A program made the position numbers and the translations under genes. A model generated the notes under the pieces. It saw only the letters and a program-made list of their open reading frames with translations. It was not told the origin of the DNA and made no database searches. Source: Candidatus Thermoflexus tengchongensis (GTDB lineage Bacteria > Chloroflexota > Anaerolineae > Thermoflexales > Thermoflexaceae). Taken from it: 64,000 nt of DNA. The DNA lies in assembly GCA_016842085.1 (NCBI GenBank), contig JAEVEX010000023.1, positions 45,839-109,838 on the forward strand, in the 5' to 3' direction. How positions within the stretch are numbered: position 1 is the stretch's first letter; every line of letters starts with the position of its first letter. Shown piece after piece: positions 22,017 to 31,330 of the stretch.

Positions 22017-23309
22017 TCAATGGAACTGTTCGGCTTCCGTGGAGCCGGCGAGGGCGATCGTGGCGGCAGCTCCCCGGGTGACGGCCATCACGACGGCATC
22101 GAAGTAGCCGGTCCCGACCTCCCGTTGATGCCGGACGGCGGTGTAGCCCTCCGCCTCCCGGGCGAACTCCGCCTCCTGAAGGCGGGCGTAGGCCGCCATC
22201 CCTTCGAGACGGTAAGATCGGGCCAGCTCGAAGGTGTGCAGGTTGAGCAGATGCCATCCGGCCAGGGTGATGAACTGGAACCGGTAGCCCATGGCGGCCA
22301 GCTCCCGCTGGAAGCGAGCGATGGTTGCGTCATCCAGATAACGCTTCCAGTTAAAGGAGGGCGAGCAGTTATAGGCCAGCAGCTTGCCCGGAAACCGGGC
22401 GTGGACGGCCTCAGCAAATCGCCGGGCCTCCTCCAGGTCCGGCTGCGAAGTCTCGAACCAGAGCAGATCGGCATAGGGGGCATAGGCCAGGGCGCGGGTG
22501 ATGGCGCTCTCCAGCCCACCGCGCACAACGAAATACCCCTCCGGGGTCCGCTCCCCGGTCAGGAAGGGGCGATCGCGCTCATCGATGTCGCTGGTGAGCA
22601 GCGTGGCGTTCCGTGCATCGGTGCGGGCGATGAGCAGGGTGGGCACGTCCAGGACATCAGCGGCCAGCCGGGCGGCGTTCAGGATGCGGATGAACTGGCC
22701 CGTGGGGATCAGAACCTTCCCCCCGAGATGGCCGCACTTTTTCTCCGCGGCCAGCTGGTCCTCGAAGTGCACTCCCGCCGCCCCTGCCTCGATCATCGCT
22801 TTCATCAACTCGAAGGCGTGGACGATCCCCCCGAACCCGGCCTCGGCATCGGCGACGATGGGGACCAGCCAGTCGCGTTCCCTTTGCCCTTCCAGCCACT
22901 CGATCTGATCGGCCCGCAGCAGGGCGTTCTGGATCCGGCGGACCAGGGCGGGAACGCTGTTGACGGGATAGAGGCTCTGATCCGGGTAGGTCTGCCCGGC
23001 GAGGTTGGCGTCGGCGGCCACCTGCCAGCCGCTCACATAGATCGCCTTCAGCCCGGCGCGGACCATCTGGACGGCCTGGGCCCCGGTGAGGGCGCCGAAG
23101 GTCGCCACGTAGGGCTCCGTATGCAAAAGCTGCCAGAGTCGCTCCGCCCCGCGACGGGCCAGGGTATACTCGATCCGCACGGATCCCCGCAGGCGAACCA
23201 CATCCAGGGCCGTGTAATCGCGACGGATGCCCTTCCAGCGAGGATCCGTCGCCCAGCGCTGCTCCAGCGCTTCCGCCTCTGCCATCCACAGCGTGCCATC
23301 CCGGCTCAT
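22017..23309 (-). CDS. aceA: Isocitrate lyase
   Basis: [77 protein letters not shown]. Confidence 0.97.
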
Positions 23310-23344
23310 CGCGCACCTCCTATAAGGATTCGTGCTATGTATCA

Positions 23345-23563
23345 GGATGGACCAGATTGGCCTGAGGGGAGGAGGCCGGAAGAACGCCATCGCTGTGGGC
23401 GGAAAAGCCCCTCCAGGAGTTCAGCTCCGGCCTCCCTCCAACCCCGATGAGTTGCTTGGGCCCGAGAGCCCCTATGAACCGGGAGGTTGGGGGTGGGAGG
23501 CCCACCGTCCTTCCGCACCTCCTCCCCCCAGGCCCCATCCCCTTCTCCGGTAGGAGGTGACCC
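23345..23563 (+). ncRNA. Candidate IS110 bridge RNA region (hypothesis)
   Basis: About 220 nt non-coding leader before the transposase; contains perfect 10-bp stem GGAGGCCGGA (23371-23380) / TCCGGCCTCC (23426-23435). Confidence 0.4.
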
Positions 23564-24788
23564 ATGCACCGACAGGGCTTTATCGGACTGGATGTGGCTA
23601 AAGACACCTTCACCGCCGCTTTCCTCATCGTCGATGCCCTTTCGGGTCAGATCCTCCACGAACAGATCGAGACCTTCTCCTATGACCACCCGGGCTGGCA
23701 GCGCTTCCTGGCCACCTGGGAACCCCTGCACGCCGACTTCTGGTGGGTGGGCCTGGAAGCCTCCGGCCCCTATTCCGCCCTTCTCGAAGCCCACCTCTTC
23801 CGCCTGCACCGGCCCAACGTCTCCCTCCACCGCCTCTCCCCCCTCCAGGTCCGGGACTTCGCCCGCTCCCGCTCCCGCCGCCGCACCAAAACCGACCACC
23901 TGGATGCCTACACCATCGCCCTCTTCCTCCGCCAGCCGCTCACCATCCAGGCCCTCCCTGCCCCCCTCCAGGATCCCACCCCCCTCCGCGCCCTGGCCCA
24001 TCTCGACCAGCATCTGGCCCAGGAACTGACCCGCACCCCTCCAGGAGTGCGGTGCCTGGGCACCGCACTCCAAGCTCCTCCATTTCCTCTTCCCCGAGCT
24101 GGAGCGTGCCTGCGCCCGCTTCCCCAAAGCCCTGCGCACCCTGCTTCGCCACTTCCCCTCCGCTCACGCCATCGCCCACGCCTCCCGCCAGGAGCTCTCC
24201 CGCGTCCTCCCACCCCGCCACCGCCTGGACCTGGAGGCCCTCCAGGCCCTGGCCCGGGCTTCCTTCGGCCTCCACGACCCCATCCGGGCGCAAACCCTCC
24301 AGCTCCTCCTGGACCGCTGGGCTTTCCTGGAGACCCTGCGCGCCCGCTGCTTCGCCGCCCTGCAACAGGCCGTCCGCCAGCATCACCCCCAGGCCTGGCG
24401 TCTCCTCCGGACCATCCCGGGCATCGGCCCCCGCCTGGCCGCCCTCTTCCTCGCCCTCACCGGCCCCCTCGACCGCTTCCCCGACCGCAAAGCCCTCATC
24501 GCCTATGCCGGCCTCGACGTCACCCTCCACCAATCCGGCCGCTTCGCCGGCCGCTGTCGCCTCTCCAAACGGGGCGACCCCCTGCTCCGCCACGTCCTCT
24601 ACCTCATCGCCGCCGCCCTCAAACGCTACACCCGTCGCTTCGCCCAGGCTTTCGCCTACTACCGCCATCAGGGGCGAGCCGTCCGCGAAACCCTGGTCAT
24701 CCTGAGTCGTAAAGCCTTGGGAATGCTCTATCACCTCCTACGCCATCCGGTCCCCTTCCAGGACCTGCCAGCACCCACACCCGTCTAA
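23564..24788 (+). pseudogene. IS110-family transposase, frameshifted
   Basis: N-terminal half IGLDVAKDTFTAAFL...GLEASGPYS...RSRRRTKTDHLDAYTIA in one frame; C-terminal half LLRTIPGIGPRLAALFLALTGPLDRFPDRKALIAYAGLDVTLHQSGRF...KRGDPLLRHVLYLIA in the +1 frame, ending TAA at 24786-24788. Confidence 0.9.
24044..24071. repeat. 28-nt perfect palindrome (12-bp arms, 4-nt loop) inside IS110 transposase
   Basis: GGAGTGCGGTGC-CTGG-GCACCGCACTCC; removing exactly 28 nt restores the transposase frame. Confidence 0.9.
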
Positions 24789-26422
24789 GCCTTATAGTTG
24801 ACTCCTGCCTCCTGGATTCGCGCCTGTGGCGAGACCGTGGCCTCCAGATAGGCCATCCCCGGCTCCGTGAGGAAGGGGATAAAATCCTCCGACTCCACCA
24901 GGAAGTCCAGCAGCTCCTGGGCCTCCCGGAGGCGGAGATCTTCCTCCCGGCCTGCCAGCTCGAGGGCGGCCCTTTCCTGATCTCGAAGGGCGCGGTAGAG
25001 GGCCTGATCCACCCGGCGCCCGTCGTTCAGGCAGGCCCCATGGCGGCGCCATTGCCAGATCTGAGAGCGGGCGATCTCGGCCGTCGCCGTGTCCTCCATG
25101 CGGTGGAAAATGGCCACGGCCCCGCGCCCGGCCAGCCAGGCCCCCAGGTATTGCAGCGCGACAGAGATATTGTTTCGCAGTCCTTCTTCCGTGATGGGGC
25201 CTTCGGGGATCTGAAGGAGCATCTCCGGCGTGACCTCGCCCGGCGGGACATGATGGATCTGATCCGGTCCCCTAAGGGTTTCCCGGAAGACCTCCTGGAC
25301 GACCGGCACGAGGCCCGGATGGGCGACCCAGGCGCCGTCGAACCCCATCTGGACCTCCCAGGTTTTATCCGCTCGCACCTCCGCAAAGGCCCGCTCGTTG
25401 GCGATAGGATCCCGGCGGGGGATATACGCGGACATCCCACCGATGGCGTGGGCCCCTCGCCGATGGGCGACCTGCACCAGCCGTCGGGCGGCTGCCTGCA
25501 GGAAGGGAGTCGCCGATACCGTGAGCCGGTTGCGATCGGGGAGGATCATCGTCGGATCGTGGGCGAAGGCCTTGATCATGCTGAAGATATAATCCCAGCG
25601 GCCCAGGTTGAGGGCGGTGATCCGCTCCCGCAGCTCATACAGGATCTCCTCCATCTCGAAGGCCGCCAGGATGTGCTCAATGAGGACGGAGACCCGGATG
25701 GATCCGCGCGGCAGGTCCAGCCGATCCTCCGCGGCCTCACAGACCTGGTTCCAGAAGCGGGCCTCGAGGTAACCCTCGAGCTTGGGCAGATAGAGGTAGG
25801 GGCCGCTTCCCCGATCCAGGAGCTCTTGGGCGTTGTGGAAAATGAAGAGGCCGAAATCGAACAGCGCCCCGGCGACCGGCTGTCCATCCACCCACAGATG
25901 CGGCTCGATCAGATGCAGCCCCCGCGGACGCATCATCAGGGTGGCGATCCCCTCCGCCAGGCGATATTCCCGTCCCTCCGGGGAGATGTAACGGATGGTC
26001 CGCCGCACCGCTTCTCGAAGGTTCCACTGCCCCTGAAGCATGTTCCTCCAGGTCGGGACGTTCGCATCCTCGAAATCCGCCATAAAAACCTGGGCGCCGG
26101 AGTTGAGGGCGTTGATCACCATCTTGCGATCCGTCGGCCCGGTGATCTCCACCCACCGGCAGCGGAGATCCTTCGGGGGCGGGGCCACCCGCCAGTTCCC
26201 CTCGCGGATCCCCCGCGTCTCCGGCGGAAAGCCCGGACGCTCCCCAGCCGCGAGGCGGGCGTAGCGCTCCCGGCGCCGGGCCAGCAGACGCTGCCGCTCC
26301 TCCTCAAAGACCCGGGCCAGCTCCGCGACGAAGGCCACGGCCTCGGGGGTCAGGATCTCCTCGAAGGGTGCTTCGAGAGGCCCCCGGATCTCGATTCGCT
26401 CCAGCGCGGCACGCATCTCCAT
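24785..26422 (-). CDS. aceB: Malate synthase
   Basis: WVEITGPTDRKMVINALNSGAQVFMADFEDANVPTW; HMI-region SVLIEHILAAFEMEEILYELRERITALNLGRWDYIFS; start at MEMRAALERIE. Confidence 0.96.
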   Translation of the reverse strand: MEMRAALERIEIRGPLEAPFEEILTPEAVAFVAELARVFEEERQRLLARRRERYARLAAGERPGFPPETRGIREGNWRVAPPPKDLRCRWVEITGPTDRKMVINALNSGAQVFMADFEDANVPTWRNMLQGQWNLREAVRRTIRYISPEGREYRLAEGIATLMMRPRGLHLIEPHLWVDGQPVAGALFDFGLFIFHNAQELLDRGSGPYLYLPKLEGYLEARFWNQVCEAAEDRLDLPRGSIRVSVLIEHILAAFEMEEILYELRERITALNLGRWDYIFSMIKAFAHDPTMILPDRNRLTVSATPFLQAAARRLVQVAHRRGAHAIGGMSAYIPRRDPIANERAFAEVRADKTWEVQMGFDGAWVAHPGLVPVVQEVFRETLRGPDQIHHVPPGEVTPEMLLQIPEGPITEEGLRNNISVALQYLGAWLAGRGAVAIFHRMEDTATAEIARSQIWQWRRHGACLNDGRRVDQALYRALRDQERAALELAGREEDLRLREAQELLDFLVESEDFIPFLTEPGMAYLEATVSPQARIQEAGVNYKA

Positions 26423-26644
26423 TCCTCTAGGTGAAGATCCTGTGGGTGATTTCCGCCACGGGTTTACGGCGGGTGCTGTTATCGTATCGGCTCGCATCGG
26501 CGTTCACAATATCCCTTCGGGGGGTTCTGACGCCCTGAGAGAAGGGCTTCCCCGGCCCGTCGGTGGAAGAGGCCTTCCCCGACCAAAGGAGAGGGCACGG
26601 CTCGCCGTTTGAGGGGGGAGGACGGCCCCGAAGGCGTAGGGCGC

Positions 26645-27322
26645 TTATGGGGATTTCTCCGGGGGAAGCCGGCCGGAGCGAGCGGTGAAGTAGAAGTGGG
26701 CGGCCTCCGTGCGGTTGCGCACGCCCAGCTTCTGAAAGATGTTCTGAAGGTGGAATTTCACCGTCGTCACCCGGACGCCGAGGCGTTGGGCGATCTGGGC
26801 GTTACTCAGGCCCTCCGCCACCAGGGCCAGGATCTCGCGTTCCCGTTCGGTAAGGGCCAGCAATCCCTCCGGGATGCGCCGGCTGAGCCAGCGCCGGGCG
26901 GCCTGGGGGAACACCAGGTGGCCCTGGGCGACCTGCCGGATGGCCGTGACGGTTTGCTGGGGGGGCTCTGTCTTCAGCACGAAGCCGTCGGCTTCGCGTT
27001 CAATGGCCATCTGAATGAACTCGCCGTCCCCGAAGGCCGTAAGGATGAGCACCCGGGTTCCCGGGCTGGCCCGGCGGATCGCCTCCAGGCAATCCCATCC
27101 GGAAAGGCCGGGCATCTGGAGATCCAGCACCACCACGTCCGGGCGATGGCGCTCGACAACCGGGATCAGCTCCGTCCCATCGGTCACGGCGGCCACCACT
27201 TCCATGTCTTCCTCGGCCCGGAGCATCGCCCGCAGGCCCTCCAGGACCAGGGGGTGATCATCGGCCAGCACAACTCGGATCCGACGGGGAACCCCGCTCT
27301 TCCCTTTCAGCATGGCAGCCAC
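26645..27322 (-). CDS. NarL/LuxR family response regulator
   Basis: RVVLADDHPLVLEGLRAMLRAE...DVVVLDLQMPGLSGWD; HTH LTEREREILALVAEGLSNAQIAQRLGVRVTTVKFHLQNIFQKLGVRNR. Confidence 0.93.
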   Translation of the reverse strand: MAAMLKGKSGVPRRIRVVLADDHPLVLEGLRAMLRAEEDMEVVAAVTDGTELIPVVERHRPDVVVLDLQMPGLSGWDCLEAIRRASPGTRVLILTAFGDGEFIQMAIEREADGFVLKTEPPQQTVTAIRQVAQGHLVFPQAARRWLSRRIPEGLLALTEREREILALVAEGLSNAQIAQRLGVRVTTVKFHLQNIFQKLGVRNRTEAAHFYFTARSGRLPPEKSP

Positions 27323-27735
27323 ACCCGGATGGATGTTCCACGGCCTGGAGCGCTTTCGATCTCAAATCGGCCGCCCAGCAGCTCCGCGCGATCCCGCATC
27401 CCCCGCAGCCCGAAGTGGCGCATCGCTTCGGGGGAGGGGTTTTGCAGATAGGGCTCCGGATCGAACCCATGGCCTTCGTCCCGGACCTCGAGCCAGAGCC
27501 CGTGGGGCTCACCGCGCAACCGGACGGTGTAATGGGCGACGCCGGCGTAGCGAGCCGCGTTGTTCAGCGTCTCCTGGAGCAACCGGTAGAGGGCGATTTT
27601 CACCGGCAGCGGAGGGGTGGGGAGATTCCCTTCCACCTCCAGATGAACCTCCAGATCTGCTGACTGAGGCTCGACCTGATCCTCCACCTGCAGCAGCATC
27701 CCCTTCTGGCTGCTGGACGGGAAAACCCGGCGCAA
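27307..27735 (-). pseudogene. Truncated histidine kinase (HATPase domain remnant, NarX/LiaS type)
   Basis: LLQETLNNAARYAG...LEVRDEGHGFDPE...FGLRGMRDRAELLGGRFEIESAPGRGTSIRVWLP; no sensor or DHp region upstream. Confidence 0.75.
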
Positions 27736-28114: not shown

Positions 28115-28774
28115 GTGATGGCAACCACCGGGAGCTTGCGGGAGATCCCGCTGGCCGCGCTGATCGAAACCGGATGCCGGTCTCGAGCATCTGCGCGACT
28201 CCGACTCCGGCAGGGCGAGTGGGAGGGCGAGATCTATTTCTCCGATGGCGAGATTGTCCATGCGGTTTGCGGGGATCTCCGGGGGGAGCCGGCGCTGTGG
28301 AGATTGCTGGGATGGACGGAGGGGCAATTCGTCCTGGAGGATGAAGTCCGCAGCCCCGAGCGCACCCTTTACCGCCCCTGGCAGGATCTATTGCTGGACG
28401 GCATGCGCAGGGCCGCTCGCTCCCCGGATGCGGCCAGCGCGACGACCCCTTTCCCCTCGGAATGGATCGCTCGCCTTCGTTCGATCGAGGGCGTTCTCGG
28501 CGTGGTGATCTGCGGTCCGGATGGCGTGGTGATGGCCGCAGAGGTTCCAGAGGGGAAGGGAGAGGCGGAAGGGGCGGTGGCGGTCTATCTGGCGGCGACT
28601 GCGGAGGCCCTGGCGGATCTTCTTCCCTTCGGCGCTTTCGAGCATGCCGTTGTCTCGGAGTCCCAGCGGCGGCTCCTGATCCTCCTGCGTTCGCCGTTCA
28701 TCATCGGCCTGGTGCTCTCCCCTCAGGCCTCGCCGGCGCTGGTCCTCTCCGAGGCGCTGGCCCGGCTGGCCTGA
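28115..28774 (+). CDS. DUF4388 + Roadblock/LC7-like protein
   Basis: N-term SLREIPLAALIETG...LRLRQGEWEGEIYFSDGEIVHAVCGDLRGEPALWRLLGWTEGQFVLE; C-term IEGVLGVVICGPDGVVMAAEV. Confidence 0.75.
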   Translation: MMATTGSLREIPLAALIETGCRSRASARLRLRQGEWEGEIYFSDGEIVHAVCGDLRGEPALWRLLGWTEGQFVLEDEVRSPERTLYRPWQDLLLDGMRRAARSPDAASATTPFPSEWIARLRSIEGVLGVVICGPDGVVMAAEVPEGKGEAEGAVAVYLAATAEALADLLPFGAFEHAVVSESQRRLLILLRSPFIIGLVLSPQASPALVLSEALARLA

Positions 28775-28839
28775 GGGAATGATTCCGCCTCTCACCGGGC
28801 GACCACCGGGCCCCAGGGAGAAGGGAGAAAGGAGAAAGG

Positions 28840-30012
28840 ATGGCGTTCGAGGAGCTGTTGCAGGAGGTGAATGCCATTCCGGGGGTGGAAGGGGTCTTCC
28901 TGCTCCATGAGGAGGGAGCGGTTCAGGGAAGCACACTCCCGGAGCGTTACCCGGCGGAGGCCCTCGCTTCGGCGGCGCGGCTCATCACCCGAACCTTCAG
29001 CGCGCTGGAGGCTTCCCGCCGGAGGGTGCCCGAGGTGGAGCTGTTTTTCACCGGAGGGCGCCTCCTCCTCCGGCGGATCCCGGGAGGGATCCTGGGGGTT
29101 TGCTGCGCCCGCTCGATCAACCGGCCGCTGCTCGATCTCGCCCTCCACCCGCTGATCCGATCGCTGAGCGCCGCCCTGAAGGAGCAGCCGGCGGCGCCCC
29201 GCAAATCCCGGGCCCCCCGGGCAGGCACCCTCCGGCTCTCCACCCTGATCCAGGATCTGGTGAACGAGGGGCTCCGCCTGGTTGAAGCGGCCCGGGCTCA
29301 GGGGCTCCTGATGCGCCTGCTGGGGAGCGTGGGGATCGCCTATCACTCCCCTTCCGCGGCCCGTTACCTGCCGACCCCCGCCTATCCGGGGTTAGAGCTT
29401 GCCGCCCCCTCCCGGCATGGGAAGGCCCTGGCGGCTTTCATGGAGGAGCAGGGATATGAGCCGCTCGCTCGGTTCAACGCGTTCTACGGAACTCGACGCC
29501 TCCACTTCCGCAAGCCGGAGGCCGGCTGGCCCGTCGACGTGTTCCTGGATGCCTATGAGATGTATCACCGGATGGAGTTCGCAGCGGTGCTCAGTCGTGA
29601 GGAGATCGCCCTGCCGCCCACCTGGCTCCTCCTTTCCCGCCTGCAGGTGGTGGAAGCCGGGGAAGCGGAGCTGCTGGAGATCGCGGTCCTGCTGCTGGAC
29701 CACGAGGTGGTGGAGGGGGAACAACCGGAGACGGTGGATCTGCGGGTGATCGCCGGGCTCTGTGCGGAGGATTGGGGGTGGTATCGAACGGTCACCATGA
29801 ACCTGGAGCGAGCGGCCCGGCAGGTCGAAGGATGGGAGGAGCCGGCGCGGGGGCGCGTCCGCGAACGCCTGGAGCGCTTGCGGCGGGCCATTGAGGCGGC
29901 TCCCAAAAGCCTGGGCTGGCAGATGCGCGCCCGGCTGGGAGACGCCGTGCGCTGGTATCAAACGCCCATCCGGCCGGAGGAGGGACCGCGGCCGGATATG
30001 GCCATCGGGTGA
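28840..30012 (+). CDS. Roadblock/LC7-like domain fused to a nucleotidyltransferase-like domain
   Basis: N-term ELLQEVNAIPGVEGVFLLHEEGAVQGS...; C-term GSVGIAYHSPS...YEPLARFNAFYGTRRLHF...PVDVFLDAYEMYHRMEF resembles AbiEii-type NTases. Confidence 0.6.
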   Translation: MAFEELLQEVNAIPGVEGVFLLHEEGAVQGSTLPERYPAEALASAARLITRTFSALEASRRRVPEVELFFTGGRLLLRRIPGGILGVCCARSINRPLLDLALHPLIRSLSAALKEQPAAPRKSRAPRAGTLRLSTLIQDLVNEGLRLVEAARAQGLLMRLLGSVGIAYHSPSAARYLPTPAYPGLELAAPSRHGKALAAFMEEQGYEPLARFNAFYGTRRLHFRKPEAGWPVDVFLDAYEMYHRMEFAAVLSREEIALPPTWLLLSRLQVVEAGEAELLEIAVLLLDHEVVEGEQPETVDLRVIAGLCAEDWGWYRTVTMNLERAARQVEGWEEPARGRVRERLERLRRAIEAAPKSLGWQMRARLGDAVRWYQTPIRPEEGPRPDMAIG

Positions 30013-30170
30013 TGGCGGCCGGGGCTCGCCCAGGGGGTTGGGAGCGGTCGAAGGGGATCCCCAACCCTTGAAAATCCCCCGGGCGGATCGGGCCAGGTAC
30101 AGAGCAGGTACAGGTATAAGTGGACAGAGCGCTCGTGGCCCATGAGGCCATGAAGTTGGGAGGAGTCCGG

Positions 30171-30437
30171 ATGCGCTGGGAGCCGGTGCGCCGTTTGGGG
30201 CGGGCGATCGGGGAGATCCTTTACGGGATGGCCCTGCACGATATGGTGCGGGCGAACCTCCGCCAGAGAGGATCCATGGAGCACCTCTTCCTGCTGATCA
30301 CCTTCGGGGATCTGGTGGGCATCCCCATTATTCCCCCCTATTACTGCATGCGGCTGCTCCCCTTCATCGTGCCTCAGATCCACTCCTGGCGCCGGCGTCT
30401 GCTTCGTGAGCGGGATCTCACGGATATGCTGTTCTGA
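30171..30437 (+). CDS. Conserved-looking small protein, unknown function
   Basis: Start at MRWEPVRRLGRAIGEILYGM with GGGAGGAG RBS; hydrophobic segment LFLLITFGDLVGIPIIPPYY; sits between the Roadblock and GTPase genes. Confidence 0.65.
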   Translation: MRWEPVRRLGRAIGEILYGMALHDMVRANLRQRGSMEHLFLLITFGDLVGIPIIPPYYCMRLLPFIVPQIHSWRRRLLRERDLTDMLF

Positions 30438-30445
30438 GGTGAGCG

Positions 30446-31330
30446 ATGACAGCTCCACGCCGGCGGGTCCTTCTGGTGATCGAGACAGCAGACCTGGCCC
30501 GCTATGCGGGGTTCCTGGAGTCCGCCGCATCGCGCTGGGAGATCCTGACCCTTCCCCTGCGCGAAGCGCTCGCTCAGCCGATCCCCGAGGAACCTCCGGA
30601 CGCGATCCTGGTCGCCGCGGAGGAGGTGCCGGAGGGATGGCTGGAGAGCTGGAAGCGGCCGGAACCGCGCCCTCTCCTGATCCAGCTGAGCGCCCGGGTT
30701 TCGGCGGCCTGCAAGGCCCCCGAAGGGCCATGGGATTGGGTCCTCCCGGCGGCTTCGCCGGGATCAGACCTGGAGGCGATCCTCCCCGCCTCCTCCGAGG
30801 ATCGGAGATCGACGATCCCGGTGCGGAAGGTCTTGCTCGTTGGGGAAGCGACCGTCGGCAAAACTTCCCTGGCCACCTTTTATCTGCAACGGGCCTTCGA
30901 TCCCCGCCGTCGCATGACCATTGGGGTGGACATCCATATCTGCCCGGTGGAAGTCGAGGGGATGGCGGTGCGTCTGGTGGTGTGGGATGTCGGAGGGCAG
31001 CGGCGCTTTGCCGCCCTGCGGGATCTTTTCTATCGGGGTGCCGCGGCCGGGGCGCTGGTTTTCGATCTGAGCAACCGCCTCTCCTTTTACCAGCTCCTGA
31101 GATGGTGGCAGGAGCTTCGGAGCCACCTCGGATCCATTCCCGTTCTCCTGGTGGGCAACAAAGCGGATCTGCCCCGCGAGATCTCCCGCCTGGAAGCGGA
31201 ATCCCTCGCCCGGGCATGGGGCACGCCGTATTTTGAGACCTCCTGCGTGACCGGCGTGGGGGTCCTCGAGTTCTTTCGGGCCCTGGCGGCCGCTGCCCTC
31301 CAGGGGACTTCGCGAGCGGAGCTAGGCTGA
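30446..31330 (+). CDS. Ras/Rab-like small GTPase with N-terminal receiver-like domain
   Basis: G1 GEATVGKTS, G3 WDVGGQ, G4 NKAD, G5 ETSC; about 125 aa N-terminal extension starting RRVLLVIETADLARY. Confidence 0.85.
   Translation: MTAPRRRVLLVIETADLARYAGFLESAASRWEILTLPLREALAQPIPEEPPDAILVAAEEVPEGWLESWKRPEPRPLLIQLSARVSAACKAPEGPWDWVLPAASPGSDLEAILPASSEDRRSTIPVRKVLLVGEATVGKTSLATFYLQRAFDPRRRMTIGVDIHICPVEVEGMAVRLVVWDVGGQRRFAALRDLFYRGAAAGALVFDLSNRLSFYQLLRWWQELRSHLGSIPVLLVGNKADLPREISRLEAESLARAWGTPYFETSCVTGVGVLEFFRALAAAALQGTSRAELG

Follow-up and report, generated by a model that had tools for sequence, protein, structure and literature searches.

Within a 64,000-nt stretch of DNA (the window, meaning the whole stretch that was analysed) from a 3.9 Mb Thermoflexus-like Chloroflexota genome, four adjacent genes on the plus strand (28118-31330) encode a protein with a PATAN (DUF4388) domain and a C-terminal Roadblock domain, a protein with a Roadblock domain and a nucleotidyltransferase (NTase)-fold domain, a small protein, and a Ras/Rab-like GTPase with a probable pseudo-receiver at its N-terminus, and their joint conservation in this order extends well past the genus Thermoflexus. 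They form a real and uncharacterised four-gene system with a plausible mechanism: fairly probably the four genes make up one functional unit, a Ras/Rab-like switch that would be run by the Roadblock proteins, with a dead NTase domain as scaffold. In the literature searched, which lay mostly outside subscription journals, neither a receiver-Ras fusion nor this operon was described in any title or abstract returned.

The original prediction for this DNA had proposed four plus-strand genes with these domains, and all four open reading frames were confirmed, their domains being supported by Pfam, profile and model evidence. Gene 1 (28118..28774; ~218 aa) more likely starts at ATG 28118 than at GTG 28115, and gene 2 (28840..30012) encodes 390 aa. 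For gene 3 (30171..30437), the predicted start ATG 30171, giving 88 aa, is more likely than GTG 30120 (105 aa), because relatives start there and a Shine-Dalgarno sequence, GGAGGAG, lies upstream. Gene 4 (30446..31330; 294 aa) follows after 8 nt, and AGGTGA precedes the GTPase ATG. Since dN/dS values in pairs of Thermoflexus genomes (Nei-Gojobori) range from 0.02 to 0.28 for all four, they are real genes under purifying selection.

The order PATAN-Roadblock, Roadblock-NTase, small protein and GTPase is complete in the Thermoflexus loci L054/L169 ('Candidatus Thermoflexus japonica', whose GTPase is 92% identical to that of the window), L055/L166 ('Candidatus Thermoflexus sinensis'), L057 and L058; another Thermoflexus contig (L060/L167) starts just upstream of gene 2, and at the 'Thermoflexus sp.' locus L059/L168 all four genes are present with in-frame stops breaking genes 2 and 4. 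The genus also has a cultured species, T. hugenholtzii. An identical four-gene order was detected in six non-Thermoflexus loci, namely L172 from a metagenome-assembled genome (MAG) of Anaerolinea sp., L174 from Anaerolineales, L175 from genome G046, L176 from a Ca. Aquidulcis MAG with a duplicated gene 2, L177 with an extra truncated copy of gene 2, and L178. Both Roadblock genes lie upstream of the GTPase gene in 8/8 informative non-Thermoflexus loci, the ninth (L173) being uninformative on neighbours as its contig begins 123 nt before the GTPase gene. Co-conservation in relatives, on which the original prediction had staked itself, was therefore observed, and because the arrangement recurs in this way it is not due to chance. 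When 399 evenly drawn Chloroflexota genomes were searched, complete receiver-Ras proteins were found only in Thermoflexus, with solo relatives otherwise, so that the unit must be regarded as patchy and rare and a separate GTDB scan was needed to locate copies elsewhere.

The G domain of gene 4 (aa ~126-285) matches Pfam Ras with an E value of 6.1e-39 and contains, as had been described, the motifs G1 GEATVGKTS, G3 WDVGGQ with the catalytic Gln, and G4 NKAD, in addition to TIGVD; with G1, the G3 Gln, G4 and the switch I Thr present, its sequence assigns it to the Ras superfamily of small GTPases. The catalytic Gln is kept in 20/20 receiver-Ras proteins. The G3 motif had been called Arf/MglA-like, and its letters are indeed Arf-like, but among solved structures the domain comes nearest to Rab/Ras in both sequence and predicted structure, and it is not an MglA: a sequence search returned Rab6/Sec4 with E ~1e-28, the AlphaFold model of the GTPase matched Rab8, Rab1 and K-Ras in a fold search (TM ~0.9 on target), and a relation to Arf was rejected, as Ras/Rab rank far above Arf in the Pfam and structure searches. 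Phylogenetic analysis with 66 rows, in which the Asgard rows had been picked via sequence patterns, showed the GTPases of the four-gene units (type I) to be monophyletic (support 100/97) and to have as sister a second receiver-Ras clade, type II (99/94), the two being joined with 100/99. Solo Chloroflexota Ras proteins come next outward, MglA lies far off and is separated with 100/100, and the Chloroflexota clade joins Rab and Asgard proteins only weakly (83/43); as Asgard matches in the GTDB scan were enriched by the search patterns, they do not by themselves demonstrate descent. At P-loop position 12, all type I proteins carry Ala and all type II proteins Gly. Identity with MglA was rejected because G3 reads WDVGGQ instead of TVPGQ/GTPGQ and the protein falls outside the MglA clade, and an MglA query of the window's genome found no MglA, its sole match being the gene 4 GTPase, the only Ras-like GTPase found. 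Membership of Rup group 1 was likewise discarded, as the Gln is present and the neighbours are PATAN-Roadblock, Roadblock-NTase and small proteins, and so was a eukaryotic-type Rab, given the missing C-terminal prenylation Cys and the weak Rab/Asgard placement. Rab F-like motifs (IGVDF/RF/YRG) occur in relatives; the window reads IGVDI.

The N-terminus of gene 4 (aa 1-~115) is assigned with moderate confidence as a pseudo-receiver, because in Thermoflexus this domain is modelled by AlphaFold as alternating beta-alpha and can be aligned in register to genuine receivers (hhalign E 2e-4, probability 45%); a fold search with the whole model is no test of the assignment, since only Ras domains appeared among the matches listed. 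The domain called receiver-like in the original prediction thus appears to be receiver-derived but degenerate. Thermoflexus proteins lack the phospho-Asp and the Lys, both positions being Ala in the window, for which reason the window protein was rejected as a functional response-regulator receiver. The N-terminus of the G046 GTPase (L062/L175) is recognised by Pfam as a receiver (2.6e-18), and the acidic pair, phospho-Asp, Thr and Lys are all retained in L177, L178 and every type II protein. In L172, L173, L175 and L176, DN replaces the second acid and Ser replaces Thr, and the receivers of L174, L170 and L171 are partly degenerate. Because some relatives carry an intact receiver where the Thermoflexus domain is degenerate, gene 4 probably descends from a response-regulator-Ras fusion.

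Type II proteins were sampled in five contigs from the GTDB scan (L179-L183). Upstream of receiver-Ras, histidine kinase and response regulator genes are located in 4/5 of them (L179-L182), the pair being a GAF/PAS kinase and an OmpR-type regulator in L180 and L181; a PATAN gene comes next in L179, L181 and L182, and Roadblock genes are present in 5/5. The cluster of L181 (2427-12320) adds MglA, a dCache-HAMP sensor and a XylR_N-V4R protein, and in L183 (1397-3569) a XylR_N-V4R gene overlaps receiver-Ras by 4 nt and receiver-Ras overlaps a Roadblock gene. V4R has a TRAPPC3/Bet3-like fold, and in both L181 and L183 it is clustered with receiver-Ras and Roadblock genes.

Gene 1 is recognised as a PATAN protein by its DUF4388 match (E 1.9e-18). 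Single-sequence Pfam scores for Roadblock lie under the gathering cut-off for both gene 1 (E 0.008) and gene 2 (E 6.5e-4; aa 1-115). For gene 1, a profile comparison with the Asgard Roadblock structure 7yh1 in the PDB gave E 2e-9, and for gene 2 the AlphaFold model displays a Roadblock fold whose PDB matches (Foldseek) include LAMTOR2/Ragulator, Asgard Roadblock and M. xanthus MglB; the profile in the first case and the predicted model with fold search in the second place the two proteins in the Roadblock/LC7 family. In genome G013 (L061:5687-9659), orthologues of genes 1 and 2 share a cluster with kinase genes, an MglB-like gene, other Roadblock genes and a canonical MglA that matches M. xanthus MglA with E ~1e-63, so that the gene 1/gene 2 pair is partnered there with a different GTPase. 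As the same pair accompanies MglA/MglB-like genes, genes 1 and 2 are tied to small-GTPase regulation. This partner swap in G013 goes together with an intact NTase active site. Two additional stand-alone Roadblock genes were found on other contigs of the window's genome.

According to the proposed mechanism, the Roadblock domains of genes 1 and 2 would dimerise, each with itself or with one another, and the dimer would engage the G domain in its GTP-bound state in the way MglB does with MglA, either setting the nucleotide state of the GTPase as GTPase-activating protein (GAP) and/or guanine nucleotide exchange factor (GEF) or holding the GTPase on a platform. The dead NTase domain would act as a binding or scaffold domain, PATAN would connect to output partners, and the small protein may, as its ArsA/GET3-associated relatives suggest, direct the complex to a membrane or a client. 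In the ancestral state, phosphorylation of the receiver would have gated the GTPase, an input that in Thermoflexus would have been lost or replaced by phosphorylation-independent regulation. Precedents for Roadblock control are MglB, a GAP/GEF dimer (PMC11016934, excerpt), and MglB/RomY, a bipartite Roadblock GAP (PMC9481161, excerpt). It is rather unlikely that the Roadblock proteins instead form a Ragulator-like platform, on which they would only position the GTPase at membrane or polar machinery, leaving its nucleotide state unchanged, with PATAN and the dead NTase docking. Such a platform would agree with the Roadblock fold of gene 2 being closest to LAMTOR2/p14 of Ragulator, with the fusion of both Roadblocks to large domains devoid of predicted catalysis, and with the Ala at P-loop position 12 of all type I proteins. 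Ala at this position would hinder an arginine finger in Ras. However, the Roadblock pair accompanies MglA and an MglB-like protein in G013, a setting where Roadblocks are GAPs, and Ala12 is compatible with GAP action because MglB itself supplies no arginine finger (PMC4316618, excerpt).

Several observations weigh against a single functional unit with a receiver-derived input. The pseudo-receiver of Thermoflexus is assigned from weak profile similarity, fold order and position, and in the type I units examined no intact histidine kinase gene adjoins, the receiver of the window being degenerate. From the units of L170 (a Chloroflexi MAG) and L171 (MFFQ01000036.1, a Ca. Eisenbacteria MAG) only the small gene is absent, and the Thermoflexus genome G002 retains an intact small gene (L056:1092-1358) without genes 1, 2 and 4, which were not found in the first 10 kb of the small-gene contig, neither gene 2 nor the GTPase being matched anywhere in the genome by the searches made. 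The small gene of G002 adjoins a glycosyltransferase-sized flank, as in other Thermoflexus. The modules of L171 and L170 are nearly the same, which may reflect transfer or mis-binning.

The small protein is related to the cory-CC-star family (NF041419, E 3.6e-8) and aligns over its conserved core FGDLVGxPIxPPYY...LLRERDLTD, yet it scores 33 bits against a curated cut-off of 80 bits and was not counted as a member. The gene 3 family is present in 31/60 relatives, and among the best non-module family loci an ArsA/GET3 gene is situated within 1.5 kb in 17/21, often after two tandem small genes. Tandem gene 3-family proteins directly before two ArsA/GET3 ATPases (L063, L067-L069) constitute a separate conserved cluster, and in L067 the tandem small genes and the ArsA/GET3 pair lie downstream of a CstA gene. 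No paper was found under the name cory-CC-star in the literature searched, and the literature on Rv3679/Rv3680 had nothing on the small protein. Described earlier as small, hydrophobic and membrane-like, the gene 3 product is small, whereas its hydrophobicity amounts to a single borderline stretch (maximum Kyte-Doolittle-19 1.68) that carries an invariant Asp, so that a membrane role is no more than possible. The further claim of a complete switch with its membrane anchor stands as far as a co-conserved unit and a GTPase clade tied to such units are concerned, but "complete with anchor" exceeds the evidence, because G002 keeps the small gene alone and the family is usually found beside ArsA/GET3. 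The same two facts, together with the units lacking the small gene (L170, L171), would fit a switch made of the three larger genes and a small gene hitch-hiking from an ArsA/GET3 pathway. This we regard as doubtful, because in Thermoflexus and in six further lineages the small gene is flanked by the same pair of genes, lying within about 20 nt of the GTPase gene or overlapping it, and because it is the most conserved of the four, with 85-99% identity in Thermoflexus and dN/dS down to 0.02.

The C-terminal domain of gene 2 (aa ~135-376) was placed in the NTase fold by Pfam, AlphaFold and fold search, and homologues of gene 2 match PF14907 (NTP_transf_5). The motif GG...DxD is retained in the 8 stand-alone NTase relatives examined and in the MglA-linked copy, and the first Asp of DxD and the GG pair are lost in 14/14 copies linked to a receiver-Ras GTPase vs 0/9 others (for the first Asp, Fisher p 1e-6, or 4e-5 for 8/8 vs 0/9 once near relatives had been collapsed by hand to 8 lineages). 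In the window the site reads GS...GLEL, which departs from the active-site pattern GG...DxD...D and indicates homology only. The domain, previously described as a degenerate NTase, has thus lost its catalytic residues and is predicted from them to be catalytically dead. An active nucleotidyltransferase that modifies the GTPase (e.g. by AMPylation) or another target is very improbable and was rejected on the active-site residue table, although stand-alone homologues match NTP_transf_5 and are common in the phylum (89/399 Chloroflexota genomes). Equally remote is an association by chance or position alone of functionally unlinked neighbours: the type I units of L175-L178 do share an upstream gatB, so that position alone is conserved there, but the gene order stays constant while the Thermoflexus flanks change (truncated histidine kinase and LuxR regulator in the window, BPD_transp_2 permease in L054, glycosyltransferase in L055), the monophyletic GTPase clade is tied to the unit, and NTase catalytic residues are lost only upon linkage to a receiver-Ras GTPase.

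Among known systems, MglA/MglB of Myxococcus and Thermus, with RomR and RomY, resembles the unit in that a Ras-superfamily GTPase is encoded with Roadblocks and linked to a receiver protein, RomR, and in that the Roadblock GAP may comprise more than one protein (MglB/RomY; PMC9481161, excerpt); PATAN proteins are sometimes encoded near mglA, according to the excerpt of a survey of single-domain prokaryotic GTPases (PMC4316618). Unlike in that system, G3 is WDVGGQ here and the tree excludes the GTPase from the MglA clade with full support; the receiver forms part of the GTPase protein, and PATAN and a dead NTase are the fusion partners of the Roadblocks. A second comparison is with the Rup GTPases (Wuichet and Sogaard-Andersen, PMC4316618, excerpt), whose G1-G5 motifs likewise look more like those of eukaryotic Rab/Ras than those of MglA. 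In Rup group 1, however, the catalytic Gln is missing and the neighbours are a coiled-coil protein, an OmpA-type protein, and a c-di-GMP enzyme or kinase, and the Rup proteins described are single-domain; the present GTPase retains the Gln, has Roadblock proteins as partners and is multi-domain. Streptomyces conservons (CvnABCD) similarly combine a small GTPase and Roadblock operon with two-component signalling, but the module in the window has neither a kinase-type CvnA nor a CvnC and its GTPase is not MglA-type; a kinase is present in the type II relatives, alongside a different gene set. Asgard Rab-like GTPases, described with Roadblock, longin and TRAPPC3/V4R proteins (PMC10933270, excerpt), share the Rab-like G domain, solved Asgard Roadblock structures are close to genes 1 and 2, and two type II contigs also have a V4R gene close by. 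In the Asgard strain examined, such genes lie generally outside operons, whereas here they are in operons, and a receiver fusion was not seen in the excerpt of that study. With the cory-CC-star-related ArsA/GET3 family, finally, gene 3 has the conserved core in common, but it falls below the NF041419 cut-off and its neighbour is a Ras-like GTPase, not ArsA/GET3.

Divergent from the module, on the minus strand of the window (26645-27735), are a LuxR-type response regulator and a 142-aa HATPase-only piece resembling a truncated histidine kinase. Farther upstream, an open reading frame on the plus strand (23564-24712) has an IS110-type transposase-like start followed by a Pro-rich part and, by eye, is perhaps a frameshifted insertion sequence; it is flanked by isocitrate lyase-like (22017-23390) and malate synthase-like (24785-26497) reading frames on the minus strand, likewise recognised by eye.

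These operons unite a Ras-like GTPase that is not MglA with the Roadblock proteins that are candidates for regulating it, and if the proposed mechanism is true, two-component phosphosignalling and a Ras/Rab-type switch would be wired within one protein. More tentatively, a Rab-like GTPase might be under direct two-component control, such that phosphorylation of the fused receiver gates the GTPase and Roadblock proteins of the same operon read or reset it, perhaps with a V4R/TRAPPC3-like protein in the sister type; the system would then parallel Rab-Roadblock-TRAPP circuitry in bacteria, and Thermoflexus would illustrate a later loss of the phosphorylation input. Because GTPase-regulator pairs are hard to predict from the layout of Asgard genomes (PMC10933270, excerpt), the operons offer ready-matched sets of GTPase and Roadblock proteins, some of them from thermophiles, which bear on the workings and possible origin of Roadblock control over Rab-like GTPases.

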